Position numbers and translations under genes: made by a program. Under the pieces are notes generated by a model, which saw only the letters and a list, made by a program, of their open reading frames with translations, had not been told where the DNA came from and made no database searches. This document shows, piece after piece, positions 25,261 to 60,396 of a stretch of 64,000 bases of DNA (positions within the stretch are counted from its first letter, which is position 1; the number at the start of each line of letters is the position of its first letter). The stretch is from Turnera subulata. Lineage: Eukaryota > Streptophyta > Magnoliopsida > Malpighiales > Passifloraceae. The stretch covers positions 282,273 to 346,272 of the forward strand of contig JAKUCV010000976.1 of the NCBI GenBank assembly GCA_028386065.3, written 5' to 3'.

Positions 25261-25261
25261 A

Positions 25262-31409: not shown

Positions 31410-32937
31410 AGTCGCCACCCAAATTTTATTAAGGGACAAAAACTTGGGAAAAACCCTTCATGTGACTCCATTTAGACAACTGGATAACGAACCAAAGATG
31501 CTGGACCCGGGATTCGTCATGGATGGGAAGGTGTTAGGCACCCATCCATGTTGGGGCGAAACTTTGTGCAATTAGAGGATTTTGTATGCCTTGTGCAAGT
31601 GTGCAAGTGTGAGCACCAAAACACATAATAACTGAATATTAAAAAGAAAGGGGAGAATAAGAAGATTAAGCTTGAGTTTCCACCACTAGAAACCACCTAC
31701 GTACCCCGGCGACCGGGTTCAAAGCCCACGTAGTTCTTGACATGGCATCACAACATTCACATCATCATCAACATCAACATCTCAACAATAATTGGTCAGA
31801 CAAAAGGGATTAGGATTACCTCTTGTAGCCCTCCTCTTGCTCCTTGGTTTGGGTTGTGCCTCCCACACAATTTCCTCCCACTCCTTAACTCAATCTTGGA
31901 GTTCTTCTTGATTTTCCCCTTTGCTGCTTTCAATGGATGATGCTACCCACGAAATTCTACCAGAGTTTTGCCTATGGAACTATTTCTTAAGCTTGGAGGG
32001 ATAGAGTTTCTCCAAGCTTCAAAGCTTTATGAAGAGTGTTTTTGTAATAGAATGTGTCTTTTGAAATGTGAGAGGGGGGGTCCTATTTATAGTGTTTTGG
32101 GTAGCCTAGGAGCGTGGACCAACTTAATGATCAAGGTAATGGCCAAAAATCTAGGCCAAAATCGAGTAGAATCAGATTACGGGCGAAAATCGGGGAGAAA
32201 ACGCATTTCTGGGTGTGCATGACCGCCATGGCCGGCGTCATCCTAGGGTTGACAGCCAGGCCGAGCGGTCATGGGTGGAAGACCGCCCAGGCCCGGCAGT
32301 CATCCCGAGATGACCGGCCGCGCCTATGCGTCTCACCCGTTCTTTCCTTTTTCGGTCCCGATTCTCCCCTAATTCCTCCCTGATTGATCCTACCGCGTAA
32401 TTAACCCCTAGACTGCCCAGAATCCTCTGCTTTCTTGATTACTACTCCTCTCAATCATCTCCTAATTCATTAATTACACATTGATTCCTCAATTTAAGCC
32501 AAAATCATACCAAAAACATTCTTGCTATTAAGGAATGATTTAACTCTGATTTTCCACGAAAATCAGAGCTAAATTTGTCTGCAAGCAAGGTGTTAATGGG
32601 CTGTGCAACTGTGAAAAAAAGTCCATACCTTATTAAATTGGACCCTTACATTTATCTTCAACCCAAGAATAAATATAATTGGGTTTAATAAATAAATAAG
32701 CCAAAATTTAATGAGATAAAATACATTTTAGCAATTTAGTCCTTAACATATCCTATGATTATATCGTCTCATTAATCCTAGGCATGTAAAAGTCTTAATT
32801 ACTATAACGTATAAATTCTACTAAAATTAAACCCCATCCATACTTCAACCCAAGACTAACTCATCAATCTTATGATTCAAACATGTCTGGAGTCTAATCT
32901 CAATATGATTTTCATGGGTCAGATTTGGGTGTTCACA
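31410..32937 (-). repeat. first LTR of element B, main part
   Basis: It continues the LTR begun at 18462 and ends GGGTGTTCACA (32937); total without Athila about 1.61 kb. On the - strand it has a TATA box (CACTATAAATAGGA, 32081-32094) and, upstream of it, the GACCGCC/GGCGGTCAT cluster (32219-32330). It is the downstream (3') LTR relative to the first interior. Confidence 0.8.
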
Positions 32938-33220
32938 GAAGCCCCTCGTTGGTGAGTCTTTAAAACTTAAAGACGAAGCTATGCAAGGAAGGAACAACCA
33001 AATTTGGATAACGAATGTGAGTGTTGTGGACCAATGGTTGGAGCATCACATGCTCCATCTCGAGAATCATCTCTTCCCGAGGTTTGTGATTGACTCATCT
33101 CATCTCTTGGGATTTTCCTGGTCCCAAGAGCTATCGGGAATCATCTCATCCCGGGGTTTCTTTTGGGATTTTCCTAGTCCCAAAAGTCATTAACAAAGGA
33201 TCATCTCACCTGTACTAACT

Positions 33221-33301
33221 AAGGATATTATCACCCTCCCGTGGGGATTTTGCTATCTAAGGATATTATCACCCTCCCGTAGGGATTTTGCCAACCAAGG
33301 A
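33221..33301. repeat. 38-bp tandem array, left part
   Basis: Two units and a start of a third of AAGGATATTATCACCCTCCC plus GTGGGGATTTTGC(T/C)AAC. The array is split by the element at 33302-41361 and resumes at 41362. From 32938 to 33220 is the end of the first interior of element B, without a gene. Confidence 0.85.
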
Positions 33302-36300
33302 TGTAACGTCCCGAATTTCGTTAATTAATTTTTCCGGAATTTTCGAAATTTTCGGTATTTAATTTCCATTTTTACCCTTGCGGAGTTTCCGGGAGTCTTT
33401 GGTTAAGAATTATTGATATAATTAATTGATTCACTTTGAAAATATTATTTTCATTTTTAGAATCGATCCTTGTTCGGGAACAATTGGAGTTCCGGGGGGA
33501 ACTATGGGGTTTGTCGTAGTTCCACTCAAAACTACGTCGTTTTGAATTAAAGTAAGAAAAAAAATAAATAAATAAAAACCTAACCCTACTATTCACGTGT
33601 TGACCAGGGGAGGAGTTGACCGCGCCTTAGCCCAAAACGACGTCGTTTTGGGTCAAGGCCGGCAATCCTAACCCCTTCTTCTTTTCTTTTCTTTTTCGTT
33701 TCCCTTCTCTTTCTTTTTGGTTCTGCTCTTCCGCCGTCTCACCCCTCTCACCCACAAGCTCTCTCTCTTCTCTCCCTCTTCGTTTTCACTCAACCCGCCA
33801 CCATTAATCATCTCTCTTTCTCTTCTTTTTCTTTTCTTTTTCTTTCCCCATAGTGCACCCGACTTCCTTCGTTCTTCTTTTTCTCTCTTCATGCCGATGG
33901 CCGCCATCACCGTGGTCATCTTCTTCCGTTGATGGGAGTCGCGGTCGATGGGAGGGCTCGGGGTGTATGGCAAGGGCGAACGGCAGGGAACTCAACGGAG
34001 AACTCGAGGATCGCCGCCGCCGCTGCATTCGGGAGTGTTCGTGTGTGCAGAACCCGAGGAACATCACGGTGCCGCCTCCGAGCACTGGTAAGTCGCGCCG
34101 CCCTGCCTTCTCTTTTCCTCTTCCCTATTTTCTTTTCTTTTCTTTGCTCGGGATTGTGTGACTAATCTCGATTTGGGATTGTGGTTTTGTGGCGTCGGGG
34201 CGAGTTTGTGGTTGCGGTTGTTGTTTGTGGTCGGTGGATTTTGGATGTTCTGTTCCGTGACTAATTGGGGGTATTGTTTATGGGCTTGTGGTGGTTGTTG
34301 CCGGCTGTGGCTAGGTCGGTTGTGGATGGCGTTGAGTGTGCATGTGTGGCTATTCTGAGGGCGCGACTGGCTTGCTCGGATGCGGGTGATGTTGGTGCAC
34401 GGATTCTTTGTCCCCGACAGAGGTTTGCTGCAGGCTTGGGTTCAGTGGACAGAACCGGGATGTGAGCATCCTATTTTGGCGGTTATTACCGGTAAGCAAT
34501 CCGGTGTGCTTTGATTGTTTCATGGTTTGTTTGTTTGCTTTGCAAATCTGGCGTGTGGAATTGAAAGTTGGTTGTGTGCTTGTTGTTGGATAGTTGTCGG
34601 GAAAGTGTTTCCTAACCATGGTGGTTTTCCGGCGAGGCTCGGGTACTGTTCCGGCGAGGCTGACCGGAATCCGGCGAGCTCGGGAATTTTCCGGCGAGGC
34701 TCGGGTTGCTGTTTTGGCAAGACAATGTTTTTCGGCATTACGTGGTAATTCTCGGGTTTTGATGCGAATTTCAATTCTTGTACAATCATGTAGTGTAAAT
34801 GCATATAATCAGTGTATTGAAATAAAACGGATCTAGTGGAAACCGGGTGTGGGGAAAAAGTGACGCGTGGCCGGTATATATATCCGACGCACATAATATC
34901 CTTAGGCCGGAAAGGTCGGGCTCGGGAGCTCGATTAGTGTGAGTAAGTGAATGGGCCGGGCCTAGACCCAAGTTATGCCATGTTAAGGATATATGGGCTT
35001 TAGGCCCAAGGACTATTATAGATACGGGCTATAGGCCCAATAAAGAGTAATTAACTTAAAATGGGCTTTAGGCCCAATGACTTTAAATGAAATGGGCTTT
35101 AGGCCCAGTGAACCGTTAATCGAGATAAATAATTGAACTTAAGCAAACTTTGGTCTCGGGCTAAGTTATAGGATTTGTCGAGCTAAGATTGGGCTTAAAG
35201 ACTAAAAGATTTCATGTCGTTATAGTCACGGCATTGACATGCATTCATCATGTTTTTGTGTGAACCTTATGTGTGGTCATTTTGACTCTAATATAGGAAA
35301 TGTTGAGATGGTATGAGCTTCGGCTTCCGGACAATTAATATGGCCAAGGTGAGGACTTATAAACCTTTGTATGCATTACTGCCTACAATGCTCGGTTAAC
35401 TGTCTTGATATATAAAGTGGTATTGATTGTTGGTCTTGAATGTTGTATGCATGCTTGTCTGATGTGCTGATGTTGCTATCTGCGAGTGTACTATGTTGGT
35501 GATATCTCTGATGTAGTGTGCATGATTTGTGAACTGTGTACCAGTGTGATATAATATGCCTATCGTGCATGAGTTGTTTTGTGTGATAAATAACGTGATA
35601 TAGATTTGTGGTTTGTGTGGTGGACCATGGGCTGGGGCCCGGATTTGAGATTAAGATGTTAAATCCACACAACGATGTTGACAGTAACGTATGGTACAAC
35701 TCTTAAAGAATAAATGAGAATAACGAATTGTAATAAAGACTATTGTGGGGCTGTTGACCGGTTGGTTCGAGCGGGAAGTGTTACCCCTCAGGATGGCATG
35801 CGGGTTAGCATGTGGGCCTGTGATGGCCGGTTCTACCTCCCTCTTTCTACCTTCCCCTTTCTACCTCCCTCTTTCTCTTTGTCTCTCTCTCTCTCTCTCT
35901 GGATATGTTTGGGCTTCGTGCCTGGTTTATTTGGGCTTCGTGCCTGGTTTATTTGGGCTTCGTGCCTGGTTTATTTGGGCTTATGCCTGGTTGTCTCATG
36001 AGACGGGACCGAGCTCGACGCACACAGTAGAGGGCCCTAATATAAATATTTAAACTTAACAACAAGATAATAGAATAAGTAATGATAAGTGATGATTTGT
36101 AGTCAAATGATATCTTGCTCTGTGTATTGCGGTTGTTGTTGTTTGATGCCGGTGTACTTGTAGTTGATTTGTTTTGTATATTATTGGTTTATTTGTCTGC
36201 GGTGAGACAGTGGTTGGTCTCACCCCCTCACAGTTTTACACAGGTTAGCTGATCGATGATCAGAAGAGCATATCAGCAGGTGGCGGTGCTTTCCTCTCCT

Positions 36301-36574
36301 CGGGTCGGATCCATAGAGTTCACTGCATACATGTTATCATATGTATAGTCTTCCGTTGCATACTCGTTGTTGTGTAACTTATTGTATAATTATTCATTGA
36401 ATTGTGTTGTCGATATTGTATCCTGGGAAGAAGGACATTTTGGTCACTTCACATGCTATACATTATTTAATGGATAATTTTGGGATACGGGTGTCCCGGG
36501 AATGATAAGGGCAATTTGGTCAATCCTTAATTAATTTATAACTTATATTTATAAATTGGGACACGGGCGTTTCA
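33302..36574 (+). repeat. left LTR of the large non-autonomous element
   Basis: TGTAACGTCCCG...GGGCGTTTCA. In order it contains a 22-bp palindrome (33631-33652), a pyrimidine-rich stretch (33665-33850), a GC-rich exon-like block ending in CTG|GTAAGT (about 34086), a cluster of TGGGCTTTAGGCCCA quasi-palindromes (34985-35110), a CT microsatellite (35870-35900) and four 21-22 bp repeats around GGGCTTCGTGCCTGGTTTA (35920-35990). Short ORFs inside are not conserved with other copies. Confidence 0.88.
33631..33652. promoter_or_regulatory. 22-bp perfect palindrome with GACGTC core
   Basis: The core AAAACGACGTCGTTTT is flanked by CCC and GGG. The same site occurs at 38439-38460, and in wider form with different but still complementary arms at 57545-57570 and 63904-63929. 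GACGTC is a bZIP C-box core, so a dimeric transcription factor site is a reasonable guess. Confidence 0.6.
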
Positions 36575-38108
36575 GCTGGTAGCGGAGCAGGCTGTAGATC
36601 CTTCGAGATGTTTGGATACGTGTTTTCACTTATATGCATAAGTCTGCTCCAGTTTGAGTCGGTTGTTGCATATGTCAAATGCATTCATATAGTGAGTCGT
36701 ACTATGGATCCGGTGGAGGACACGCACCTGCTGGGGGTCGGAGTGACCCGGTATAGTTGTTGAAATGATATGTTTATCTTTACAGCTTGGCTGTAAGCAA
36801 AGTTTATCTTGTGGTATATCCACTGTTTTGTCAGAGTCGGGGTAGACTCTTGACTCTTTACTTGTATCGTCTGTCTGTGTGGAACTGGCCAATACAAGTA
36901 AGAACCATCAATTTGTTTTTGGATGTTATGTCTGTCAAGAGATGATCTGATATGATTCTTGTGATTTTGTTGATCTTGGTGATCATGCTATGTGTGGTCA
37001 GATTATATAAATTTGAGGATTTGAAGTTACTCGTGAAATTATAATATGGATTTAATCCTGTTTGGAATTCGAGATGATAATTTCTTGAATTAGTCTGAGG
37101 ATGATTTAATGATATAATTGGGGGAAATATCTTTTAAAGATACTTGAGGTAATAAACTTGGATGAGTTTGGGGTTGATCTAATGGTATATTTGGTGAATT
37201 ATGTTTCAATGATGCTTGAGGTACTTGACTTTGTGGAGATTTGAGATATTAGTGGTGATTGTGATAATAAGGTTTTGATCATGAATCATTATTGAGGTTA
37301 TAGCTCATGTGCGGTTGAGGATTTCGAAAATAGGTTTACATTGAGGGTTGACTTCTGAGGTGATCTCGAGTATGATGATTCACTTGCTAGTCTGTTAAGT
37401 ATGTGAGGAGGGGAACAGTGATGATGTCTTAAGTTTCTTATCAAATAAATTTTGGTGTTCGTGCTAAGTGTGACTTGAGGAGTAGAATATAAGCATGAGT
37501 ATGAGTTACGAAAGAATGTTTGGGTCTTGAGGAGTCTAAGTTTTGGAATTATAATTATGATATTCCGGTGACGATTCGTTTTTAGTGCCTAAGGTATGAC
37601 CTAGGTTACATACGATTTTGGTTGAAATGGTGTGTGTTAGAGAAAATACAATGAGGTTCAGGTCATGAGATTGATTATGGATTTTTGGTTTTGAGGTATT
37701 CACAAAGTGATGATCTTGTACTTCGGTAACAACTTGGGGTTCTGTGTTAGAGGAAATGCGTAACAGATTAAAGGATTGGATATATTTGGTTGTTTGATGA
37801 TAAATGAAATGGATTTTAGATTTTGATGTTATTGATGTGGGTCATGGTTAGATAAGACTATTGGGGTTAATACTTTGATCTTATGGTCCACGGATCATGT
37901 TTGACTTAAGTTGATGTTTGACTTGGTAATTCGGAGTTCTAGCTTGGGAAAGGTAAACTTATGTGATTGATGGTCATCATGGTTCTACTTGGTGGTTTTG
38001 GCCAACGGTATTTTGATACCGGATGACACTGTTTGTGTCAGTTAAGCACTTGGTTGCTTGACTTCTCTTGAAATTTCGAGGACGAAATTTTGTTAAGTGG
38101 GGTAGAAC
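36575..38108 (+). other. non-coding interior of the large non-autonomous element
   Basis: It contains the primer-binding-like TGGTAGCGGAGCAGG (36577) and the polypurine region (38077-38108). Between them is A/T-rich sequence with no ORF of note and no trace of gag, protease, reverse transcriptase or integrase that I can recognise. Confidence 0.8.
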
Positions 38109-41100
38109 AGTAACGCCCCGAATTTCGTTAATTGAATTTTCCGGAATTTTCGAAATTTTTGGTATTTAATTTCCATTTTTACCCTTGCGGAGTTTCCGGG
38201 AGTCTTTGGTTAAGAATTATTGATATAATTAATTGTTTCACTTTGAAAATATTATTTTCACTTTTAGAATCGATCCTTGTTCGGGAACAATTGGAGTTCC
38301 GGGGGGAACTATGGGGTTTGTCGTAGTTCCACTCAAAACTACGTCGTTTTGAATTAAAGTAAGGAAAAAAAATAAATAAATAAAAACCTAACCCTACTAT
38401 TCACGTGTTGACCAGGGGAGGAGTTGACCGCGCCTTAGCCCAAAACGACGTCGTTTTGGGTCAAGGCCGGCAACCCTAACCCCTTCTTCTTTTCTTTTCT
38501 TTTTCGTTTCCCTTCTCTTTCTTTTTGGTTCTGCTCTTTCGTCGTCTCACCCCTCTCACCCACAAGCTCTCTCTCTTCTCACCCTCTTCGTTTTCACTCA
38601 ACCCGCCACCATTAATCATCTCTCTTTCTCTTCTTTTTCTTTTCTTTTTCTTTCCCCATAGTGCACCCGACTTCCTTCGTTCTTCTTTTTCTCTCTTCAT
38701 GCCGATGGCCGCCATCACCGTGGTCATCTTCTTCCGTTGATGGGAGTTGCGGTCGATGGGAGGGCTCGGGGTGTATGGCAAGGGCGGACGGCGGGGAACT
38801 CAATGGAGAACTCGAGGATCGCCGCCGCCGCTGCATTCGGGAGTGTTCGTGTGTGCAGAACCGAGGAACATCACGGTGCCGCCTCCGAGCACTGGTAAGT
38901 CGCGCCGCCCTGCCTTCTCTTTTCCTCTTCCCTATTTTCTTTTCTTTTCTTTACTCGGGATTGTGTGACTAATCTCGATTTGGGATTGTGGTTTTGTGGC
39001 GTCGGGGCGAGTTTGTGGTTGCGGTTGTTGTTTGTGGTCGGTGGATTTTGGATGTTCTGTTCCGTGACTAATTGGGGGTATTGTTTATGGGCTTGTGGTG
39101 GTTGTTGCCGGCTGTGGCTAGGTCGGTTGTGGATGGCGTTGAGTGTGCATGTGTGGCTATTCTGAGGGCGACAACTGGCTTGCTTGGATGCGGGTGATGT
39201 TGGTGCACGGATTCTTTGTCCCCGACAGAGGTTTGCTGCAGGCTTGGGTTCAGTGGACAGAACCGGGATGTGAGCATCCTATTTTGGCGGTTATTACCGG
39301 TAAGCAATCCGGTGTGCTTTGATTGTTTCATGGTTTGTTTGTTTGCTTTGCAAATCTGGTGTGTGGAATTGAATGTTGGTTGTGTGCTTGTTGTTGGATA
39401 GTTGTCGGGAAAGTGTTTCCTAACCATGGTGGTTTTCCGGCGAGGCTCGGGTACTGTTCCGACGAGGCTGACCGGAATCCGGCGAGCTCGGGAATTTTCC
39501 GGCGAGGCTCGGGTTGCTGTTCTGGCAAGACAAACAAAAAGCCGTAATGCACCATTAAGAGCCCAAAACTACGCTTAAAGTTAAGAACATGTTAGTACAT
39601 CACATTTACGTATATTAGTCACATAACTTTATTTTGCCTAGATCACCTTTGGCCCACACCCCTTTTTCACTGCGCACCGGCCATATATATAGGCTGCGTG
39701 TATTATAGGAATCCGGCCTTTGGTCGGGCTCGAGAGCTCAATTAGTGTGAGTAAGTGAATGGGCCGGGCCTAGACCCAAGTTATGCCATGTTAAGGATAT
39801 ATGGGCTTTAGGCCCAAGGACTATTATAGATACAGGCTATAGGCCCAATAAAGAGTAATTAACTTAAAATGGGCTTTAGGCCCAATGACTTTAAATGAAA
39901 TGGGCTTTAGGCCCAGTGAACCGTTAATCGAGATAAATAATTGAACTTAAGCAAACTTTGGTCTCGGGCTAAGTTATAGGATTTGTCGAGCTAAGATTGG
40001 GCTTAAAGACTAAAAGATTTCATGTCGTTATAGTCACGGCATTGACATGCATTCATCATGTTTTTGTGTGAACCTTATGTGTGGTCATTTTGACTCTAAT
40101 ATAGGAAATGTTAAGGTGGTATGAGCTTCGGCTTCCGGGACAATTAATATGGCCAAGGTGAGGACTTATAAACCTTTGTATGCATTACTACCTACAATGC
40201 TCGGTTAACTGTCTTGATATATAAAGTGGTATTGATTGTTGATCTTGAATGCTGTATGCATGCTTGTCTGATGTGCTGATGTTGCTATCTGCGAGTGTAC
40301 TATGTTGGTGATATCTCTGATGTAGTGTGCATGATTTGTGAACTGTGTACCAATGTGATATAATATGCCTGTCGTGCATGAGTTGTTTTGTGTGATAAAT
40401 AACGTGATATAGATTTGTGGTTTGTGTGGTGGACCATGGGCTGGGGCCCGGATTTGAGATTAAGATGTTAAATCCACACAACGATGTTGACAGTAACGTA
40501 TGGTACAACTCTTAAAGAATAAATGAGAATAACGAATTGTAATAAAGTCTACTGTGGGGCTGTTGACCGGTTGGTTCGAGCGGGAAGTGTTACCCCTCGG
40601 GATGGCATGCGGGTTAGCATGTGGGCCTGTGATGGCCGGTTCTACCTCCCTCTTTCTACCTCCCCCTTTCTACCTCCCTCTTTCTCTCTGTCTCTCTCTC
40701 TCTCTCTCTGGATATGTTTGGGCTTCGTGCCTGGTTTATTTGGGCTTCGTGCCTGGTTTATTTGGGCTTATGCCTGGTTATCTCATGAGACGGGACCGAG
40801 CTCGACGCACACAGTAGAGGGCCCTAATATAAATATTTAAACTTAACAACAAGATAATAGAATAAGTAATGATAAGTGATGATTTGTAGTCCGATGATAT
40901 CTTGCTCTGTGTATTGTGGTTGTTGTTGTTTGATGCCGGTGTACTTGTTGTTGATTTGTTTTGTATATTATTGGTTTATTTGTCTGCGGTGAGACAGTGG
41001 TTGGTCTCACCCCCTCACAGTTTTACACAGGTTAGCTGATCGATGATCAGAAGAGCATATCAGCAGGTGGCGGTGCTTTCCTCTCCTCGGGTCGGATCCA

Positions 41101-41361
41101 TAGAGTTCACTGCATACATGTTATCATATGTATAGTCTTTCGCTGCATACTCGTTGTTGTGTAACTTATTGTATAATTGTTCATTGAATTGTGTTGTCAA
41201 TATTGTATCCCGGGAAGAAGGGCATTTTGGTCTCTTCACATGCTATACATTATTTAATGGATAATTTTGGGATACGGGTGTCCCGGGAATGATAAGGGCA
41301 ATTTGGTCAATCCTTAATTAATTTATAACTTATATTTATAAATTGGGACACGGGCGTTTCA
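38109..41361 (+). repeat. right LTR of the large non-autonomous element
   Basis: It matches the left LTR closely except for the first base (A instead of T), one fewer of the 22-bp repeats near 40720, small substitutions and the anomalous block at 39534-39721. It ends GGGCGTTTCA followed by the AAGGA target duplication. Confidence 0.88.
39534..39721. other. 188-bp block that is the unreversed complement of the sister LTR
   Basis: Position by position, each base equals the Watson-Crick complement of the base at 34726-34913 in the left LTR, in the same direction, with no mismatch seen in 188. On both sides normal LTR identity resumes at once (GACAA before, GGTCGGG after). A third, diverged LTR (about 58670-58860) has the 34726 version. 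So the order of bases is kept and only their identity is complemented, which is not an inversion. Confidence 0.95.
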
Positions 41362-41720
41362 AAGGATATTATCACCCTCCCGTGGGGATTTTGCTAACTA
41401 AGCACATTATCACCCTCCCGTGGGATTTTGCTAACTAAGGATATTATCACCCTCCCATGGGGATTTCGCCAACAACGGATATTATCACCCTCCCGTGGGG
41501 ATTTTGCCAACTAAGGTTATTATCACCCTCCCGTGGGGATTTTGCTAACTAAGGATATTATCACCCTCCCGTGGGGATTTTTCCAAGTAAGGATATTATC
41601 ACCCTCCCATGGGGATTTTGCTAACTAAGGATATTATCACCCTCCCGTGGGGATTTCGTTAACAAGGATCACCTCACCTGTGTGAACTAGGGATATTGTC
41701 GCCCTCCCGTGAGGATCTCT
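41362..41720. repeat. 38-bp tandem array, right part
   Basis: About eight further units of GGATATTATCACCCTCCC(G/A)TGGGGATTT plus about 10 bases, then two degenerate ones. It belongs to the first interior of element B, next to its 3' LTR. The second interior has a different, longer repeat in the same place. From 41720 to 42224 no gene is seen. Confidence 0.85.
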
Positions 41721-42224
41721 TCTCATCTCGGGGGTTTTGGGATTTTCCTGGTCCCAAGAGCTAACGGGAATCATCCCATGGTTCTTCTACATCGTCTCGG
41801 TGCTCCTCTATGTCGGGACAACATCCATGGGATATCTCCCTCAACATCTTCATCCACTCTACTTTAGGGGTATCTGCCCCCTAACGACTTTCTTCTACCC
41901 TACTTCTATCTTAGGGGCAGATGCCCCTGGTCTCGGCTGGTCTAGATCGAGCATGTTCGCGGACCCTTCGGATCCTTCTTCATTCAAGGCAATCATCCAA
42001 AGAATAGGCTCATCACGTTTTCAAAAGACTCATCATTCTAAAGTAAAATACACGTCTAACTCATCATAACACATATCATTGTAAATTCAAGTAAAAGATC
42101 ATAAAATACCCCTTAAGTGATAAATACACATGTTTTCCTCGCCTCTCTTTCATATTCTCTCTTTCCCTTTTTTTACCTTCCTCTCTCAATTTTCTGGAAT
42201 TTTTCAATTTTTTTTCGGGCGAAT

Positions 42225-42504
42225 AGTGTCGGCCGCGCGGTCGTGAGGAGGGATGACCACCACTTTCTGGCGGTCTTGTATGGATGACCGCCAGGCGTGG
42301 CGGTCTTCTCGTCATGACCACCCGCGCTGGCGGTCATAGCTCCCGGGTCTTCATCTTCTTTTCCTTTTTTTTTTTGGCTTTTGGGTTTGGGCTTTAGGGT
42401 TTTTCACGACTCCTCTCAACTCAAAACACTATAAACACAGCTCTGGGGACGTCTAAAGACCCTCATAAACCTCAAAATCCCTTCTACACACATCTAAAAC
42501 AAAC
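42225..42504 (+). promoter_or_regulatory. promoter-like region of the first antisense ORF of element B
   Basis: A GC-rich cluster at 42225-42345 alternates GACCGCC/GACCACC with GGCGGTC, giving several hairpins. It is followed by AAAACACTATAAACACAG (42422-42439) as TATA region and ATG at 42505. The same order, cluster then CACTATAAAT, occurs on the other strand in the element's LTRs. Confidence 0.6.
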
Positions 42505-43816
42505 ATGAGTGAGAATTTTCATGCCAAGATGCTTCAATGGATGGCGAGCGTGCCTCACATATGCCGTCAAAGTTTTGCGGTGTTGGGACTCTCCACATTA
42601 TTCCACCTTCGCGGCATGGCGGTGGAGGAGAACTTGATTCGTGCTGCTGCAAAATTCTGGGACAAGAGTCGCCGTGTTTTTCGCTTCGGTCAAGACATGA
42701 TGGAGCTTTGTCCTTCTATTGATGAATCAACACGTTCATGGGTGCAAAATTCATAAGCGAAGTTGCCATGGTTTCTCTTGCAAAACCCGTCCTGAAAGAG
42801 GTTAGCAAATTTCTTTTCGTGGCTGATGGGCAACTTAGTTTTCTTCTGGATTAGCACAACTGTCTTGACTTATCGAAAATTATTGACCAATATTTCCTTG
42901 GTGGTTCGGAACATCGTCCGGGGGAGTGTGATACCGAATGGAGAGAAAAACGAAACCATGCTCTTACCCTTGTGATGACACATGAATTTCTCTTAGTAGG
43001 CTCCCCTGGTGTTTGTCCTCACCAAGTCGGTGCTTTGGTGGCTGAACTTTTTAACAAAAAGAGCCTTACTCCAATGATTTTAGGTGAAACCCTCCATTTT
43101 CTAGACAAACTGGTGGACGATCCCTCAGCTCTTATGTCCGGCTCTCCCCTCTTGCTTCAGGTATAAATTCTCCCACTCTGATTCTCGAAGTATCACCGTT
43201 ATCATGCTGATTCTTCATACTTTTTCAGATATAGTTGTTTGAACACCTCACATTGATTGAACGGCCTCAAACCAATCCTCCGAATTACATTCGTCGTGGC
43301 TATTCCATCTTCTTCCACACCATTCGGGATTGGACCATCTTCATGAGGGATCTCACAGGCGCACAAATCATGTGGTATTGCTGGTGGTTGGGGATGCAAA
43401 AGGTAGTCATTCGTACATTATGCAAGGATTGGGTCCCAATCCCAGGTCTAGAGCAATCCACATACTATCGTCCGAATAGGATCCTGAGACGATTCGGCAT
43501 AAATCAAGTAGTTCCATCAACTATCCTAACTCCTACCACTGGACCCATGGAGGCGGCTGCTCTAAAAGTCATCAAAGGAGGTTGGGCTCTGGCCCTGTGA
43601 GAAGGTACTGGTGGTCATTTCGAGATACATCCCTCATTGGCATATTTGGAGTGGCTGAAAGAGGATGTGGCTGATACTGAGAGGTCCTTGCGTCTGATGA
43701 GAGAAGCATTCTTAGAAGAGTTGGTGCCCCCAGGCATTGGATTGCCCAATCGTCTAGTTGAATAGAAGAATGGCGGGGACGGCGCTCCAAGTCGAAAAAG
43801 GCACAAGAAGGATTGA
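42505..43816 (+). pseudogene. antisense ORF of element B, first copy (plant-mobile-domain-like)
   Basis: It starts MSENFHAKMLQWM and matches the second copy (50671) along its length. Exon 1 runs to 43160 and ends CAG|GTATAA; a 68-bp GT...AG intron (43161-43228) follows; exon 2 holds the block around YYRPNRILRRFGINQVVP seen in plant-mobile-domain-type proteins, and ends in a basic tail (SRKRHKKD, stop at 43814-43816). Lesions: a one-base deletion near 42727, TAG at the start of exon 2 (near 43232), TGA near 43600 and TAG near 43764. It is antisense to gag and the LTRs. The product in other Tat elements has no known function; a nuclear DNA-linked role is guessed from the PMD family. Confidence 0.6.
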
Positions 43817-44326
43817 GTCTCATTCCAACAACTATCTCTTTACACTTATGATGCATGCGAATAAATGAGTGAACAAACTCCCTTTATCTTTTGTCAGTCT
43901 TTGGATTATCTATGATAATAATGGAACCGAACCCCAACGTACCCATGACCTTTTTTCTTTTCTCTTTATTTTTTTTTTAGGCTCACGAGATCAGGCGCAC
44001 GTAGTTCTCTTCTTTGGTCTGTTGTTTTGTCTCTTCAGATAAGAATTTTTTTCTTGCTCGAATGGCTTGATCAGAGACCTCTATTTGATTAGGGCTTTGA
44101 TCAGGAGTATTATTGTTATCATTAATGTTCCATCTTTAGATTAACGTCCAAATATTTTGGGGAGTTTGTCCAACACACCATATTCATGTGAACCATATAT
44201 GTAAAAAGACATCATTGAAATAACAGAAAGAGTGCCCCTTTTATTGAAACGAAACATAACATAAACTTGCCCATTGGCTTATTAAACACTCAACTAAGCA
44301 CTCTGCAAAAGTCAACATACAAATCC

Positions 44327-46891
44327 TCAAGCCATCCCACCTTTCCCAAAGAGATGCCTACAACCAAAGTCCTCGTCTTTGTCTATCCTCCTCTTTTCTT
44401 CTTCTTCTTCCTCCCTTATTTCTTCGGGATAACAGTCAAAGAATACCTCAAATCCTGGTTTTCTGGTCTTCGTGATGCTACACATGCATGGTTCAGAGAA
44501 ATCGCAAAAGGGAAAGTCCTCTTCTTTCTTCAAAAAATATCCATTCAGTGTTTTGAAGTATGGAGTCATGGGAAAATCCCATTCCCGTTTGTTCTTGCGG
44601 GCTGCTACATTAGCTTGGTTCTTCACCTTTTGCTCTTCCAGCTCCGCCGGGGTTGGAACATATCCCAAACCAAAAGGAGGCACAACACTCAAAATTTCAA
44701 GGACCTCTAACACTCCTTGCTGCCTCCTTCCTAACCCCATAATCGGAAAATATTTCATCTTTCTCACAATGCTCATAACCGACGAATTGCCAAATGGGTC
44801 TTAATAAGTGGGTCTCATAATGGTCTTGTCAATCATTATAGTACTGATAGATTAGAAAACAAAACCGGATAAAGACACCTCTTCTTCTTCTTCAATCCCA
44901 CATATCGGTTTGATATTCTTTTCAGCCATTTCTCCTTTAATGGTGACTATCCCCCCTTTGTAAGGGAATTGTAACATCTGATGTAAGGTGGAGGCTATAG
45001 CTCGGGCTTGGTGCAACTGTGGTCTTCCAAGGAGCAAATTGAAACTCGATGCAATATCGAGCACTTGGAACTCTACCAAAAAAGGAGCGGACCCGATGAT
45101 GACTTCCAGCTTTAACATGCCCAACACTTCTCTTCTGGCATTGTCATATGCCCTGACCATAGTTCGGGAGGGTAAGAAATCTGCAACTCCAAATCCTAAG
45201 GAACTCGCGGTTTTTAATGGACAGACATTCAGGGCGGATCCATTATCTATTAATACCAAGGGTATTTGATTTTTCTTGGCCTGAACGGTTATGTATAGGG
45301 CATCAATATGGGCTTCCCTACCCGAGCGGAGATCTTTGTCTGAGAAGGATTTCTGATTGTCAACTTCTACTAAAGCTATCATGTTGGCCAATGCATCTGG
45401 TGCGGTATCAATGGGGACATGAGCCTTGCTTAAGGTTTGGTGTACCTTTTCTTGATGTGGGCGAGAAGACATTAGTAAACCCCAGATAGAGATATTGGTC
45501 TGAGTCTTCTTCAATTGTTTTGTCACTAAGTCTTCTTCATGATCCGTTATTTCTTCCGGTTCATCTAGGCGAATGGGAGCCCTTCTCGCCACTCCTCCCG
45601 ATCTAGTGTTTACATCAACTTCTTCATCAGAGTCTTCATACCAACTCAGATCGAGCACACAGTATGGCAACTCAGGCTCGGAATCGACCTCCATCATATC
45701 GACCTCTCCGAGTAAGGGCAAGGGATTTGACTTGGTATTCGGCCTTTTGGGCAGAATTATTTCATTCCTTTCTATTAAATCCTGGATCTCATGCCGATGT
45801 TGGACGTAGTTGTCTGTAGCATGCCCAACCACCTGATGGAATCCACAAAATTTATTAGGGTCCCCTCCATAGGGAAGACCAGATTTTGGTTCCAGGGGCT
45901 GCAGTAAATTCTTTTCCACACACTTCTGCAGCATCTTTCCTAAAGACATAGGTAGGGGAGTAAACTCCCTTCTATTCGACTCAACCTGTAGTGGGGTCTG
46001 AACAGCGACATGATTCACTTTGGCGTGCTTTTTTCTGGGGGGCGCATTGAAACTCCTTCTGGAGGTGTCCGTAGGCATCCTGATCTTACCCGAACTAATA
46101 GCATCTTCCAACTGTATTCCCGCCCCAATGAGTGCTTTAAAATTGGCATAATAATTGCCAACCATGCGATCGTAGTAAATTGCCTGTAGGTTCTTGATCA
46201 CCATCTGCACTTGATCTTCTTCTGTAGGTCTGTCCACCATTAAGGATGCTTTATTGCGCCACCTCGAGATGTATGCAGAAAACGTCTCTTGAGCCTCTTG
46301 CTTGGTTGTGTCGAGATCCCTTTTGGTCATATCCACTTCAGTGTTATAGCTATACTGCTTCAGGAATTCTTTACAGAGGTCCTCCCATTTGCTTATCTTC
46401 CTCTCATCCAAGGTCATGAACCACCTCAAAGCTCCTCCAGATAAAGTTCTTTGGAATAATTGGGTCATTAATTCAGGCCCAATCCCCATAGGTTGCAGCA
46501 TCCTCACATAGATCTTCAGGTGAGTTGTGGGATATTCTGTTCCGTTGAACTTCTCCATATCTGGCTTCTTAAATTTTTCAGGCAAACGGGCCTCGGGGAA
46601 CAAAGACAGGCGATCTAAATTCCAATCGTCCTCTTTCTTCTTCATGGTTTTCAAGAGGGCCTCTAGTCTTCTAAGTCTCTCCCCATCTTCCTTAGATTCT
46701 TGCGCCACCGAATCACTATCCTAAACTATCACCACATTATGCTCGCCATCCGGTTTTGAATTTTGTCCCCCATTACTCCCAGGGAACACCATCTTCCCCT
46801 TCTTTAGGGCTTGGAGTGCTTCCATGATATTCAGATCCTTAAGTAAGTTCAGAATTTCCTCAGGCACTTTGGCCCCATTTTCCTCACTCAT
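44327..46891 (-). pseudogene. gag-protease-G-patch frame of element B, first copy
   Basis: One frame of 855 codons runs from ATG 46891 to 44327, interrupted by three stops: 46721-46723 (codon 57), 44852-44854 and 44801-44803. Gag: SLFPEARLPEKFKKPDMEKF then a helical gag domain (about residues 110-260). A Cys/His patch (CGFHQVVGHATDN, near 45835) may be a zinc-binding remnant. Protease: VLIDNGSALNVCPL (near 45245), with DNGS where most retropepsins have DTGS, typical of Tat/Ogre. The C-terminal part (GLGRRQQGVLE ... FGLGY) resembles the G-patch found after protease in Tat elements. Reverse transcriptase and integrase do not follow. ATG 46891 is chosen because the second copy starts at the homologous place. 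Confidence 0.75.
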
Positions 46892-47382
46892 GTTGTCCTA
46901 ATATTTAAAGGACCAGTGTCAGGGTCTTTGACTCCCAGGGACTATCTCACACATGTCTCTCTAGATTTATATATGGAGGAATGAACGTGGGGGCACCTCA
47001 TGTATTTCTACTTGAACTCACAACAACAAGCACTCAAATGCACGCAACACCTATTGATTCATCAAGCATGGGATGCTCAGGGTCTGTGGCTGGTTGGGGG
47101 CTAAAAAAGTGTCACTAAGGAATAGTTTGGCCTACTCGCATGTGATAAAAGATATCGCGTGAGTTCCAAGGCCCATTAATCCCCATCATTGCATGAGCAG
47201 CGAGAAACTGGTTCACACAAACCGTTATCGCTTAAGGAATGCATTGTAATGGACTTGGATCCCCTGGCCCTCTTACGGTAAGGGCTTCAGAACATTTATC
47301 ATGAATGCAGGGCACTTATGATGACACATAAAAAGGCATACAGAAATTCAATAATCGCACAAAGTTTCTTGAACCCTCAAAG

Positions 47383-47400
47383 TCCCCAGCGGAGTCGCCA
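47383..47400 (-). promoter_or_regulatory. primer-binding site of element B, first interior
   Basis: On the - strand TGGCGACTCCGCTGGGGA, two bases from an LTR terminus (TGTGAATACCC, 47403 on the + strand). Region 46892-47382 is the untranslated leader, without a gene. Confidence 0.65.
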
Positions 47401-47402
47401 GC

Positions 47403-47760
47403 TGTGAATACCCGACCCAAAATCACTTGGGCCTATTCACCTTCACTTTACACCTTCTTCATAACCATCATCCAACAGCTTTGGATTCGCCACCTAAATT
47501 TTATTAAGGGACAAAAACTTGGGAAAAGCCCTTCTTGTGACTCCATTTAGGCAACTGAATTGATGAAGGTGCTCTCCTTGAGGGGGGATAAAAAGCATCA
47601 CGTCCCAAGTTCGAATCCCTAGTGTTGCAGCATGGTGAAGGATTTAATCGGACAGAGGGAGTGATGTAACAATACCTGAGTATGGTGGGTCCCTTGGGGA
47701 GACGGCCTTCACAAAAAAAAGCACTTTGTTTGTGAAGGCCCTCTCCCCGAGGGACCCACC
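47403..47760 (-). repeat. duplicated LTR tip (156 bp) and inserted hairpin/SINE-like segment
   Basis: 47403-47558 repeats the terminal part of the B LTR. It is followed by 202 bp of foreign text with a Pol III B-box-like GTTCGAATCCC (about 47612), a run of eight A (47713-47720) and a hairpin (arms about 47684-47715 and 47729-47760) whose right arm ends exactly where the full LTR begins (47761). A tRNA-derived SINE fragment is possible; the A box is not convincing. Confidence 0.5.
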
Positions 47761-49368
47761 TGTGAATACCCGACCCAAAATCACTTGGGCCTATTCACCT
47801 TTCCTATACACCTTCTTCATAACCATCATCCAGCATCTATGGAGTCGCCACCCAAATTTTATTAAGGGACAAAAACTTGGGAAAAACCTTTCATGTGACT
47901 CCATTTAGGCAACTGATTAGCGAACAAAAGATGCTGGACCCGGGGATTCGTCATGGATGGGAAGTTGTTAGGCACCCATCCATGTTGGGGCGAAACTTTG
48001 TGCAATTAGAGGACTTTGTATGTCTTGTGCACGTGTGCAAGTGTGAGCACCAAAACACATAATAACTGAATATTAAAAAGAAAGGGGAGACGAAGAAGAA
48101 TGGGCTTGAGTTTCCACCGCTAGAAACCACCTACGTACCCCGGCGACCGGGTTCAAAGCCCACGTAGTTCTCAACATGGCATCACAACAATCACATCATC
48201 ACCAACATCAACATCTCAACAATAATTGGTCAGACAAAAAGGGATTGGGATTACCTCTTGTAGCCCTCCTCTAGCTCCTTGGTTTGGGTTGTGCCTTCCA
48301 CACAATTTCCTTCCACTTCTCAACTCAATCTTGGAGTTCTTCTTGATTCTCCTTTCTTACTGCCTTCAATGGATGATGCTACCCACGAAATTCTACCAGA
48401 GTTTTGCCTATGGAACTATTTCTTAAGCTTGGAGAGGTAGAGTTTCTCCAAGCTTCAAAGCTTTTTGAAGAGTGTTTGTGTAATAGAATGTGTCTCCCCC
48501 GAAATGTGAGAGGGGGGTCCTATTTATAGTGTTCTGGGTAGCCTAGGGGTGTGGACCAACTTAATGATCAAGGTAATGCCAAAACATCTGGGCCAAAATC
48601 GAGTAGAATCAGATTACGGGCGAAAATCAAGGAGAAAATGCATTTCTGAAGGTGCATGACCGCCATAGCCGGCGGTCATCCTATGGATGACAGCCAGGCC
48701 GGGTGGTCATGGGTGGAAGACCGCCCAGGCCCGGCGTTCATCCTGAGATGACCGCCCGCGCCTATGCGTTTCGCCCGTTCTTTCCTTTTTCGTTCCCGAT
48801 TCTCCTCTAATTCCTCCCTGATTGATCCTACCGCGTAATTAACCCCTAGACTGCTCAGAATCCTCTGCTTTCTTGATTACTACTCCCCTCAATCTTCTCC
48901 TAATTGACTAATTACACATTGATTCCTCATTTTAAGCCAAAATCATACCAAAAACATTGTTGCTATTAGGGAATGATTTAACTCTGATTTTCCACGAAAA
49001 TCAGAGCTAAATTTGTCTGCAAGCAAGGTGTTAATGGGCTGTGCAACTCTGAAGAAAAGTTCATACCTTATTAAATTGGACCCTTACATTTATCTTCAAC
49101 CCAAAAATAATGGGTTCAATAAATAAACAAGCCCAAATTTAATGAGATAAAATACATTTTAGCAATTTAGTCCTTAACATATCCTATAATTAAATCGTCT
49201 CATTAATCCTAGGCATATAAAAGTCTTAATTACTATAACGTATAAATTCTATTGAAATTAAACCCCATCCATGCTTCAACTCAAGACTAACTCATTATTC
49301 TTATGATTCAAACTTTTTTGGAGTCTAATCTCAATAGAATCTTCATGGGTCAAATTTGGGTGTTCACA
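47761..49368 (-). repeat. middle LTR of element B
   Basis: TGTGAATACCC...GGGTGTTCACA, 1608 bp. On the - strand it serves as 5' LTR for the interior to its left and 3' LTR for the interior to its right. TATA region at 48519-48536 (- strand), GACCGCC/GGCGGTC cluster at 48655-48760. Confidence 0.82.
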
Positions 49369-49830
49369 GAAGCCCCTCGTTGGTGAGTCTTTAAAATTTT
49401 AAGGACGAAGAAACGCAAGGAAGGAACAACCAAATTTGGATAACGGGTGTGAGTGTTGTGGACCATTGGTTGGAGCATCACATGCTCTACCTCGAGAATC
49501 ATCTCATCCCGAGGTTTCTTTTGGGATTTTCCTGGTCCCAAAAATCATTAACAAAGGATCATCTCACCTATGTTAACTAAGAATATTGTCTACCTCCCAT
49601 GGGGAATTCATCTACCGAGGGGTTTCTTTAGGGATTTTCCTGGTCCCAAAAGTCATTAACAAAGGATCACCTCACCTACGTTAACTAGGGATATTATCTA
49701 TCTCCCGTGGGGAATTCATCTACTGAGGGGTTTTTTTGGAATTTTCCTGGTCCCAAAAGTCATTAACAAAGGATCATCTCACCTATGTTACCTAGGGATA
49801 TTGTCTACCTCCCGTGGGGATTTCACCTCA
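49369..49830. repeat. start of second interior and about 105-bp repeats
   Basis: The text next to the LTR matches 32938-33220 of the first interior. Three units of about 105 bp, each with CCCAAAAGTCATTAACAAAGGATCA-type text (near 49537, 49646 and 49750), replace the 38-bp array of the other copy. From 49830 to 50399 there is no gene. Confidence 0.75.
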
Positions 49831-50399
49831 TCTCGGGGGTCTTGGGATTTTCCTGGTCCCAAGAGCTAACGGGAATCATCTCGTGGCTCGTCTACATCTT
49901 CTCGGTGCTCCTCTACGTCGGGACATCGTCCCTGGGATATCTATCCCTCAACATCTTCATCAATTCTATCTTAGGGGCATCTGCCCCTAGCAACTCTTAT
50001 CGACTCTACTTCTACCCTAGGGGCATCTGCCCTTGGCAACTCTCAACGGTTCTTCTTCTATTTCAAGGGCATCTGCTCCTGGTCTTGGCTAGTCTAGATC
50101 AAACATATTCATGGACCCTTCGGGTTCTCCCTCACTCAGAGCATCACAACTCGAGGCAATCATCCAAAGCATAGGCTCATCACGTTTTCAAGAGACTCAT
50201 CATTCTAAAGTAAAGTACACGTCTAGCTCATCATAGCACACATCACTATAAATTCAAGTAAAAGATCATAAAATGCCCCTTAAGTGATAGATACACATGT
50301 TTTCCTCGACTCTCTTTCATATTCTCTCCTTCCCCTTCTTTTCCTTCCTCTCTCAATTTTCTGGAATTATTTTTTCAAAATTTGTTTTGGGTGAATAGT

Positions 50400-50670
50400 G
50401 CTTGCCGGGCAGTCGTGAGTAGAGATGACCGCCACTTCCCGACGATCTTGTATGGATGACCGCCAGGCGTGGCGATCTTCTCGTCATGACTGCCCGCACT
50501 GGCGGTCATAGCTCCCGGGTCTTCATCTTTTTTTCCTTTTTGGCTTTTGGGTTTGGGTTTTAGGGTTTTTCACGAGTCCTCTCATCTCAAAACACTATAA
50601 ATACAACTGTGGGGACATCTAAAGACCCTCACAAATATCAGAATCCCTTCGACACACATCTAAAAAAAAA
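50400..50670 (+). promoter_or_regulatory. promoter-like region of the second antisense ORF
   Basis: GC-rich GACCGCC/GGCGGTC cluster at 50400-50515, then AAAACACTATAAATACAACT (about 50589) and ATG at 50671. The TATA context AAAACACTATAAATA is identical to that in the LTR of the same element on the opposite strand (32085-32099). Confidence 0.6.
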
Positions 50671-51977
50671 ATGAGTGAGAATTTTCATGCCAAGGTGCTT
50701 CAATGGATGGCGAGCGTGCCTCGCATATGCCGTTTGAGTTTTACGGCGCTGGGACTCTCCACATTGTCCCAACTTTGTGGCGTGGTGGTGGAGGAGAACT
50801 TGATTTGTACCGCTACAAAATTCTGGGACAAGAGTCATCGCGTTTTTTGCTTTGGTCAAGACATGATGGAGCTTTGTCCTTCTATTGAGGAATTCAACAC
50901 GTTCATGGGTGCAAAATTCATAAGCGAAGTGGCCATGGTTTCTCTTGCAAAGCCCGTTCTGAAAGAGGTTAGCAAATTTTTCCTCCTGGCAGATGGGAAG
51001 CTTAGTTTTCTTCTGGATCAGCACAACTGTCTTGACTTATCGAAAATTGTTGACCAATATTTCCTTGGTGGTTCGGAACATCATTTGGGGGAGTGTGATG
51101 TTGGATGGAGAGAAAAGCGAAACCGTGCTCTTGCCCTTGTGATGACACATGAAATTCTCCTAGTAGGCTTCTGGGGTGTTTGTCCTCTCCGAGTTGGTGC
51201 TTTGGTGGCTAAAATTTTTGACAAAAAGAGCCTTACTCCGGTGATTTTAGGTGAAACCCTCCATTGTCTAGACAAACTGGTGGACGATCCCTCAGCTCCT
51301 ATGTCTCGCTCTCCCTTCTTGCTTCAAATATAAATTCTCCCACTCTGATTCTTGAAGCATCATTGTTATCTTGCTGATTCTTCATACTTTTCAGATGTGG
51401 TTGCGTGCACAACTCACATTGATTGAACGGCCTCAAACCAATCCTCCGAATTACATTCGTCGTGTATATTCCGTCTTCTTCCATACCATTCGGGATTGGA
51501 CCATCTTCATGAGGGACCTCACAGGCACACAAATCATGTGGTATTGTAGGTGGTTGGGGATGCAAGAGGTAGTCATTCGTACTTTATGCAAGGATTGGGT
51601 CCCACTCCCGGGTCTAGAGAAATCCGTATACTATCGTCCAAACAGGATCCTGAGACAATTCGACATAAATCAAGTAGTTCCATCAACTATCCCAACTCCT
51701 ACCACAGGACCTATGGAGACGACTGCTCTAAAAGTCATCAAAGGAGGTTGGGCTCTGGCCTTGAGAGAAGGTACTGGTGGTCATTTCGAGATACACCCTC
51801 ACGGTCATATTTGGAGTGGGTGAAAGAGGATGTGGCTGATATTGAGAGGTCCTTATGTCTGATGAGAGAAGCATTCTTAGAAGAGTTGGTACCCCAGGCT
51901 TTGGATTGCCTAATCGTCAAGTTAAAGAGAAGAATGGGGACGGTGCTCCAAGTCGAAAAAGGCATAAGAAGGATTAA
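50671..51977 (+). pseudogene. antisense ORF of element B, second copy (plant-mobile-domain-like)
   Basis: Exon 1 is fully open (50671-51327, MSENFHAKVLQWM...). The splice donor seen in the first copy (CAG|GTATAA) is CAA|ATATAA here, so the intron (51328-51394) has lost its GT and the frame ends at TAA 51331-51333. Exon 2 (51395 on) is open through the YYRPNRILRQFDINQVVP block, then a one-base deletion near 51800 shifts the frame; the conserved basic tail ends at 51975-51977. Together the two copies show the same two-exon gene with independent lesions. No membrane segment or known catalytic motif is visible. Confidence 0.6.
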
Positions 51978-52431
51978 GTCTCATTCCAACAAGTATCCCT
52001 TTATACTTATGATGCATGCGAATAAATGAGTGAACAAACTCCCTTTATGTTTTGTCAATCTTTGGATTATCAATGATAACAATGGAACCGAACCCTTGTT
52101 GGGCTTCCTATGTACCCATGACCTTTTTTTTTTTTAGGCTCACGAGATCAGGCTCACGTAGTTCTCTTCTTTGGTATGTTGATTTGTCTCTTTGGATGAG
52201 AATTTTTCCATGCTCAAATGGCTTGATCATAGACCTTTATCTGATTGGGGCTTTGATCAAGATTATTATCATTAATAATCCATTTTTAGATTAACGTCCA
52301 GATATTTCGGGGAGTTTGTCCAACACACCATAATCATATGAACCATATATGTAAAATGACATCATTGAAATAACAGAAAGAGTGCCCCTTTTATTGAAAC
52401 AAAACACAACATAAACTTGCCTGTTAAACTC

Positions 52432-55428: not shown

Positions 55429-55446
55429 TCCCCAGTGGAGTCGCCA
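55429..55446 (-). promoter_or_regulatory. primer-binding site of element B, second interior
   Basis: On the - strand TGGCGACTCCACTGGGGA, two bases from the LTR terminus at 55449. 54938-55428 is leader without a gene. Confidence 0.65.
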
Positions 55447-55448
55447 GC

Positions 55449-57218: not shown

Positions 57219-60200
57219 TGTAACGCCCCGATTTTTGTTAATTGATTTTTACGGAATTTTCAAAAATTTTGGTATTTAGTTTCCACTTTTACCCTTGCTG
57301 AATTTTCGGGAGTCTTTGGTTAAGAAATTGTTGTTATAATTAATTTATTCTCCTTGAAAATATTATTTTTACTTTTGGAATTTATCCTTATTCGGGTTGT
57401 TTGGGAACAATTGGAGTTCCGGGGTGAAATATGGAGTTTATTGTAGTTTCACTCAAAACTACGTCGTTTTGGATTAAAGTAAAAAAAAAAAGAAAAACCT
57501 AATCCTATGCGCGCGTTGACCAGGGGAGAGTTGACCACGCCTTAAGACCAAAACGACGTCGTTTTGGTCTAGGCCGGCCAACCCTAACCCCCTTCCTCTT
57601 TTCTTTTCTTTTTTGTTTCCCTTTCTCTTTCTTTTCTTTTCTTCTCTTCCGCCGCTCTCCCCGTTCTCCCTCTCTCCCATGTTTGCTCCCGGATCCTTCT
57701 CCTTCAAATCGTGGGTTCAACGGCTCAGGGGTTCCTGCATTTCTTTTCTTCTCCTCTTCTAATCTCTTTTCTTCTCTTCCCGATTCACTATCATCACCTC
57801 TTTTCGCTCTCGCCGCCGTCCTCACCATCTCGTCTTCCTCTCGCCATCGAAGAACGCCGCCGCCTTAGCTGTTGCTTCCCTCTTCACTACCGTCGTTATC
57901 GGGACAAAGGGGGAGGCTTGGAGACTTGTGGTGTCAGGCGCTAGTGTTGGCGAGGAGAACTCGAGGGCTAGACTCGAGTGCACGCCCCCGCCGTTGCTAG
58001 TTGCTGGTAAGCCTCACCGTTTCCTTTGTTCCTTCTTCCTCTTCCTTTTTGTTTTTGGGGGGCGATTTATTAAATGGGGGTTGTTGTGTGGACTAACCGA
58101 TTTGATTCAGTGTTTGTTTGGGTTTTGTGGGTGGCGGTTGGGCTTGTCAATGGTGGTGGTATGTGTGTTGTTGTTGCCTGGGTTGGTGTTTGGGTGCATG
58201 ACGGAGGTCGGGTCTGTGGTGGCTTTGTTGTGGGGTTGATGACGGCGAATCCGAGGTTGTTTACGGGGGCCGGTTTGTTGTCTCGTGATGGTGATGCATC
58301 TAGCCGGAACTGTTCTGTTCGAATCGTGGGCTCGTTTCTGCAGTGAGGTGCAGGGTTCGTTTTGGGGCTTTGGAGGCCAGATCCAGTGTGCGGTCGATGG
58401 TGGTGCTGGAATTCTTTGGCAGTGTTGTTGCTAGGCTCGGGCCACTATTGTTTGTACAGAATCGATATCCCGGTAACTTCCAGTCCCTAATTCGTTTGTG
58501 TTCGTTTAGATGATGTTTATCATGGTTGGTTGTTGGACTCTATGTTGAATTTTGGTTGATGTTCGGGTTTGAGCAGATGGTTGTGGCTGTTCCGGCGACT
58601 CGGCTTATTGTTTCAGCAAGTCTGACCAGAATCCGATGACATGGTTATTGATCCGGTGAGATAGTGTTATTTTTTCGACGTGACACGGTAATTCTCGAAC
58701 GATGGCGTGTGTTCAGTTTTCGTTCAAATCATGCACTGCAACTGCTTTTGACTATTGTATTAAAATGAGATGAAATTAGTGGAAATCGGGTGTGGAGGGA
58801 CGAGATGCGCGTGGCCGCAATCCTTCCGACGAGTATAGTATCTTTAAGTCAGAAAAACTAGCCTCGATAAGGTTTGATTAAGTTTATATGGGCTTTAGGC
58901 CCAACAGCCATTATGGATATGGACCTTAGGCCCAAGAAAGAGTAATTAATTTAAGATGGGCTTTAGGCCCAATGACTTTTATGATGTGGGCTTTAGGTCC
59001 AAGTAAGGTTAATGTATGATTTGGGCTCTAGGCCCAATGGATAATTAAACCATATAATTATTATTAATATGGGCTTAGATCTAATAAGGACTTGAGAATA
59101 TTGATTAGGCTTGAGGACTCATGATGATATATCTAAATAAGCACGTTTTAGTGTACATTTGTTATATTTTTATGTGGACCTTATGTATGGTCGTATCTTG
59201 GTTCTAATATAGGATATGTTGAGGCGGAACGAGGCTTCGGCTTCCGAGACAATTGATATGGCCCAGGTGAGGACATATAAACCTTTGTATGCGTATTGGC
59301 TACAATACTCGGTCATTTGTTATGGTTCATTAAGGGATAACATTTGTTTGGCATTTAAAGCTATATGCGTGTATGCCTGTTGTGTTGATGTTGTTGATGC
59401 TCGGTGTATCATGATGATGATATCTTTGTTCTTGAGTGCCTGATTATGTGAACTGTGAGCCTATGTGATATGGTATGCCAGTTGAGCATGATATGTTGTT
59501 ATGATTAAGAAATGATTATATGACTTTGTGGTTCGTGTGAAGACTTGAGGACTGAAGGCTTGGACTTGAGAATAAGATATTAAATCCACACAACCCTGTT
59601 TGATCATAACGCATGGCACAACTCTTTAAGCATAATTGAGAATAACGAACTATAATAATTCTACTGTGGGGCTGTTGATCGGCTGGTTCGAGCGGGAAGT
59701 GATACCCCTCGGGATTTCATGCAGGATAGCATGGTATATGCAGTTTAGCATATGGGTCTTTGATGATCGGTTCTACCCCCCTCTTTCTATCTCCCTCCTT
59801 CTACCTCCCTCTTTCTCTCTGTCTTTCTCTCTCTCTCACTGATTGTATTGGGCCTTGCCCTGATTATATTGGGCTTATGCCCTGGTTGTCTCATGAGACG
59901 GGATCCAGCTCGACGCACACAGTAGATGGCCCTAATAAAATATTAAATCGATAATAAGATGATTAAAGGCAAGTTTAGGTTTAAAGTCTGATGATGACTT
60001 TGTGCTGTGCAATGTGACTTGTTTGTGCTCTATGATTGCTACTGCCTGATGCCAGTATTTGTGGTTGATTTGTATTAGTATACTTTGGTTTATCTGTTTG
60101 CGGTGAGAAGGTGGTTGGTCTCACCCCCTCACAGTCTTTACACAGGTTAGCTGATCGATGATCTGGAGTGCATATCAGCAGGCGACGGTGCTTTCCTCCT

Positions 60201-60396
60201 CAGGTCGGATCCATAGAGTTCCTTGCATACTTGTTTTATGTATTTTGTCTTCCGCTGCATATTCGAAGTTATTTAATTTATTGTATAATTGTGCATTGAT
60301 TTTGTTATTTGTATCGTATCCCGGTAGAAAGGGCAATTTGATCTTTTCATATGTTTTAATTGATTTAATTGGATATTTTGGGATACGGGCGTTTCA
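57219..60396 (+). repeat. LTR related to the large non-autonomous family, solo
   Basis: TGTAACGCCCCG...GATACGGGCGTTTCA, 3178 bp, clearly homologous to the LTRs at 33302 and 38109 but well diverged. It has a 26-bp version of the palindrome (57545-57570), the CTG|GTAAG junction (about 58004) and at least five TGGGCTTTAGGCCCA-type repeats (58889-59042). No primer-binding site follows at 60397 and I see no target-site duplication, so it is a solo or truncated copy. Confidence 0.78.

Follow-up and report, generated by a model that had tools for sequence, protein, structure and literature searches.

A 188-Base Block in One Long Terminal Repeat of a Retrotransposon Reads as the Unreversed Complement of Its Sister Copy

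Introduction

Under the name of swinger DNA, Seligmann has described nuclear and mitochondrial gene sequences that follow the exchange rule A↔T + C↔G, and the passages concerned point to an embedded case in the Kamimuria wangi mitogenome, its 16S gene, and state that the DNA cases found so far follow this rule only (PMC4942731). A swinger article with "sharp switches" in its title is cited in passages of both PMC4942731 and PMC7027195, and further passages on the subject are found in PMC5094600. One passage of PMC7027195 argues that random artefacts are unable to make systematic exchanges, which counts against a slip in a file; as an orientation slip is non-random, it is not excluded by the argument in the form given in that passage. 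For the K. wangi 16S gene, parts of PMC3900512 contain a table row with two columns of like skew signs, while the text describes the skews differently, as both slightly positive; the record may or may not hold an error.

A repeat copy placed in the wrong orientation by assembly is described in parts of a preprint on the plastid record NC_029456 of Dendrobium nobile, where the inverted repeats are arranged as tandem repeats (PMC12288543). There the whole repeat is misdirected, a form that is possible in real DNA.

Here, we analyze a stretch of 64,000 nucleotides of Turnera subulata DNA (the window), in which a 188-base block within a long terminal repeat (LTR) reads as the complement of the sister LTR in the same direction. 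Like the swinger DNA described in passages of PMC4942731, the block follows the exchange rule A↔T + C↔G and is embedded in regular sequence. The named swinger case is a single mitochondrial gene in a deposited record, although nuclear cases are also claimed in that article (PMC4942731, in the passages concerned), whereas the present window contains both copies, altered and unaltered, within a retrotransposon, and under the exchange rule the two agree with 0 mismatches in 188 positions. If placed by assembly, the block would resemble the repeat of NC_029456; unlike that repeat, it corresponds to only half of a reverse-complement operation and is obtainable by no rearrangement.

The Block and Its Carrier

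Both blocks occupy the equivalent place in the two LTRs of one retrotransposon of 8,060 bases, with the following features:

33297..33301, + strand: left copy of the target-site duplication AAGGA, 5 bases
33302..36574, + strand: LTR1, starting with TG and ending with CA, paired with LTR2 by BLAST
34726..34913, + strand: sister block in LTR1, ancestral text, matching the third LTR directly
36575..38108, + strand: internal region (about 1.5 kb) in which stop-to-stop frames reach at most 101 aa
38109..41361, + strand: LTR2, starting with AG and ending with CA, the holder of the altered block
39534..39721, + strand: altered block in LTR2, equal to 34726-34913 complemented in the same direction (188/188)
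41362..41366, + strand: right copy of the target-site duplication AAGGA, 5 bases

The two near-identical LTRs, each about 3.27 kb long, lie in direct orientation, and BLAST pairs 33303-34725 with 38110-39533 at 98.3% identity and 34914-36574 with 39722-41361 at 97.0% identity. With no frame longer than 101 aa in its interior, the element is probably non-autonomous with long LTRs and, judged by the same frame length, its internal region is probably non-coding and free of gag-pol. We take the carrier to belong to the LARD-like class of long-LTR, non-coding retrotransposons, which it matches in its LTRs of about 3.27 kb, its 1.5-kb interior without a long frame and its 5-bp target-site duplication; we know of nothing in this class that makes complemented blocks. 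By eye, the start of the interior, after 36575, contains a stretch that we take to be tRNA-Met-like and a candidate primer-binding site, and a purine-rich stretch before 38109 is a candidate polypurine tract. The insertion of the retrotransposon splits a 38-base tandem array, found at 33215-33302 and 41362-41669. The surroundings form a large two-copy segment (31410-33250 and 41656-47558 against 47843-49716 and 49760-55604), the pieces of which are 87-90% identical and in direct order, and the 8-kb element is present only in the left copy.

A base-by-base recomputation found 39534-39721 to equal the same-direction complement of 34726-34913 at all 188 positions, as originally predicted. Every base of the block is thus exchanged by one fixed rule with the direction kept, and the observation is correct in every letter and confirmed as real in the file; an exact match of 188 bases in 64 kb is not a matter of chance. 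The other ways of reading the sister sequence fail, the mismatches being 188/188 for the direct text, 126/188 for the reverse and 150/188 for the reverse complement, the last about the level of unrelated sequence. The bases adjoining the block on the left and on the right are those of the sister LTR, so the switch to regular sequence is sharp and the flanking identity resumes at once, in agreement with what had been reported. Because no base is its own complement, the block edges are exact.

The direction of the change is given by a third copy of the same family:

57220..60392 (ends of BLAST pieces), + strand: third, older LTR, with identity of about 73-83% across the aligned pieces and 68% within the block

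The LTR1 block matches this copy directly at 58671-58855 (68% over 189 columns, E 2e-10), whereas the LTR2 block matches it solely after being complemented; at E 1e-3, BLAST aligns the LTR2 block directly with neither LTR1 nor the third LTR. As the third LTR matches the text of LTR1 and not that of LTR2, LTR1 is ancestral and the block in LTR2 is the altered one, which bears out the earlier view of the 34726 text as the original. The change is visible in this element because a sister copy exists.

Differences Between the LTRs and Placement of the Block

Outside the block, 48 mismatches in about 3,084 positions and 26 gap columns separate LTR1 from LTR2; the first LTR base is an additional mismatch. 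One gap of 22 columns reflects a difference in the copy number of a 22-base tandem unit, present in about 3.9 copies in LTR1 (35908-35992) and about 2.9 copies in LTR2 (40717-40779). At this rate, about 3 differences are expected inside the 188 bases and 0 were observed (P ~0.05); among the other windows of 188 bases, 123 of 2,709 are likewise without differences. With the block read as complement, the run free of differences extends further:

34715..34924, + strand: difference-free run of 210 bases, nearest differences at 34714/39522 and 34925/39733

The block lies exactly in the center of this run, with 11 spare bases on either side. Of the 3,084 possible placements of a block of this length, 146 are free of differences and 4 are exactly centered. 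The differences of LTR2 would persist if its own letters were complemented, be it in a file or a cell, and the zero count therefore weakly favors a copy of the sister as the source, or an interval chosen for its identity; the argument is weak and was made post hoc. The exact centering (4/3,084), which was also noticed post hoc, leans toward a chosen rather than an accidental interval.

Search for Further Blocks

We compared the whole window with its own complement, reverse and reverse complement in an exact-match scan, in which only blocks with a sister copy inside the window are detectable. Same-direction complement matches of at least 16 nt numbered 14, each pair counted from both sides. A low-complexity filter removed 10 of these, and the remaining 4 represent the 188-nt pair and one 18-nt pair that consists mostly of an A/T run. 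Low-complexity runs aside, the window holds no second same-direction complement match longer than 18 bases. We then combined base relabeling with direction into 47 rules and took the best row of each after filtering. No other of these rules gave a comparable match in the window: the next longest, of 44 nt, is an ordinary inverted repeat, and the remaining rows above 20 nt are, by our own classing, two-base same-place tracts (35, 34, 30 and 25 nt) and mirror-type self-matches (23 and 21 nt).

To assess composition, we trained a strand-symmetric Markov model on the remainder of the window. Models of orders 1 and 2 did not separate the block from its complement, and under orders 3 and 4 the complement fitted better than the block itself. 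As 14 of 675 control windows (order 3) and 6 of 675 (order 4) scored at least as high, the composition test is too weak to detect other such blocks. The block with its flanks had no match among plasmid records.

As a measure of the base rate, we used the 16S gene. The direct text of a 300-base stretch of E. coli 16S had 37,541 occurrences, spread over 5,375 genomes in a set of 5,426 from E. coli, and its same-direction complement gave 0 megablast matches in the same 5,426 genomes. For a 22-base 16S motif, a GTDB-based genome collection contained at least 116 stretches with the direct text and 0 exact matches to the complement. These controls cover one gene, under selection, in prokaryotes, and they speak against a common cell process and equally against a common software slip.

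Origin of the Block

We consider it highly probable that the origin lies at the level of the file, whether by accident or by intent, and the explanation that we favor, with somewhat better than even confidence, is an orientation slip during assembly or gap filling rather than an event in the DNA. LTR2 may have had a short stretch that was hard to place, both LTRs having the 210-base identical run there, and the gap may have been closed with minus-strand sequence of the element, a read or a consensus, probably taken from the sister LTR. The fill would then have been reversed without complementing, or complemented without reversing, and written into the forward sequence; the true LTR2 would have ordinary LTR text at 39534-39721. 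We infer the patching step, its source and the software involved. Computation shows that the reverse of the reverse complement of the sister text is identical to the block, and omitting half of a reverse-complement step is therefore enough. The original prediction had described the operation as complementing without reversal, a wording that is too narrow in that a minus-strand read yields the identical text when it is reversed and left uncomplemented. With no differences in the block, a patch taken from the sister LTR is weakly favored, as is a chosen interval. Points against a patching slip are that the window contains no N run and no lower-case letter and that it shows a single such block among sequences with a sister copy there, where a systematic bug would be expected to produce others. 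We know of no named gap-filler with a bug that complements without reversing, and no such bug was reported among the matches listed in our literature search, which was mostly at the level of titles and abstracts. A deliberate edit after assembly, in which 188 letters inside an exact repeat were complemented to serve as watermark, planted control or test of readers, fits nearly as well as the orientation slip; we regard it as a real possibility, if on balance a doubtful one. It would account for the single block in the window, low-complexity runs aside, for its position wholly inside the difference-free run with equal margins, a centering recognized only after the fact, and for a length that is a multiple of 4 and equals 47 bytes in 2-bit packing, a property expected by accident in 1 of 4 cases. 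If this were the origin, the public record would be unedited. The earlier judgment that a data-handling error or an edit is the likeliest cause thus stands as the best reading of the exact match, the third LTR and the scan of 47 rules, which do not amount to proof.

Explanations by events in the molecule fare worse. DNA synthesis and strand exchange are antiparallel, and rearrangements thus yield direct or reverse-complement copies. An ordinary inversion, template switch or gene conversion between the LTRs would agree with the position and flanks that the two LTRs share. Inversion, however, would give the reverse complement, from which the block disagrees at 150 of 188 positions, and it is refuted, as had been stated from the first; template switching and conversion are established to give direct or reverse-complement copies only, and we dismiss this group of explanations almost entirely. 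That the block in the file is also real in a living molecule is, on grounds of mechanism and parsimony, very unlikely. It would demand that a polymerase made a 188-base copy with A↔T and C↔G exchanged, by "swinger" replication, or that synthesis ran with parallel strands, to which we attach very little credence; we give equally little to a nuclear stretch of 188 bases having been copied with parallel polarity or a fixed exchange and joined seamlessly into the end of a retrotransposon. In its favor, swinger DNA in nuclear and mitochondrial genes has to date been claimed under this rule alone, according to passages of PMC4942731, the switches at the left and right edges are sharp, and parallel-direction synthesis in PCR has been claimed in an F1000Research paper (PMC4304224). 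The statement in the original prediction that no known mechanism explains the block is accordingly to be qualified by the published swinger proposal, which in the passages concerned covers exactly this exchange. Such copying is nevertheless forbidden by established antiparallel synthesis, an exchange of LTR2's own bases would leave the 3 or so differences that are not seen (P ~0.05), and no same-direction complement of 16S appeared in the prokaryote controls, though 16S is under selection. Moreover, the claimed swinger sequences are database records called swinger by their author alone, as far as the passages of PMC4942731 go, and an orientation slip would produce the very exchange that is the sole one claimed there for DNA.

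If the block is a file error, it represents damage to an assembly that would probably escape routine quality control: GC content is unchanged, neither gaps nor ambiguous bases remain, and same-direction complements are ignored by standard aligners. Recent repeats, LTR pairs among them, lend themselves to detecting such damage, and a scan for same-direction complements of at least 50 bases would be a cheap assembly test. If the block were true in the molecule, it would contradict antiparallel synthesis as the sole route of DNA copying and make the swinger claims directly testable.

Other Features of the Window

Elsewhere in the window, inverted arms of 123 bases at 6491-6613 and 6778-6900, separated by a 164-base spacer and containing exact pieces of 44, 36 and 41 bases, are perhaps a short hairpin-type transposon. 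The frame 7697-8212 has a Brix-domain match of 28.0 bits, under the Pfam cut-off of 28.2, and is perhaps an exon of a ribosome-assembly gene. Retroelement pieces span 21668-27652, with matches to gag, reverse transcriptase/RNase H and ATHILA ORF1 and a protease match under the Pfam cut-off. A gag-like protein of the window (P0025) had 77 matches at 29-51% identity, and a reverse-transcriptase piece showed 55-75% identity among the best 120 of 2,739 matches; among the matches listed for the two, the named sources are almost all plants, which points to a flowering plant as host. One protein filed under Weizmannia (Heyndrickxia) coagulans is 48% identical to the gag-like P0025 over 38% of the query and is perhaps plant contamination in a bacterial assembly.
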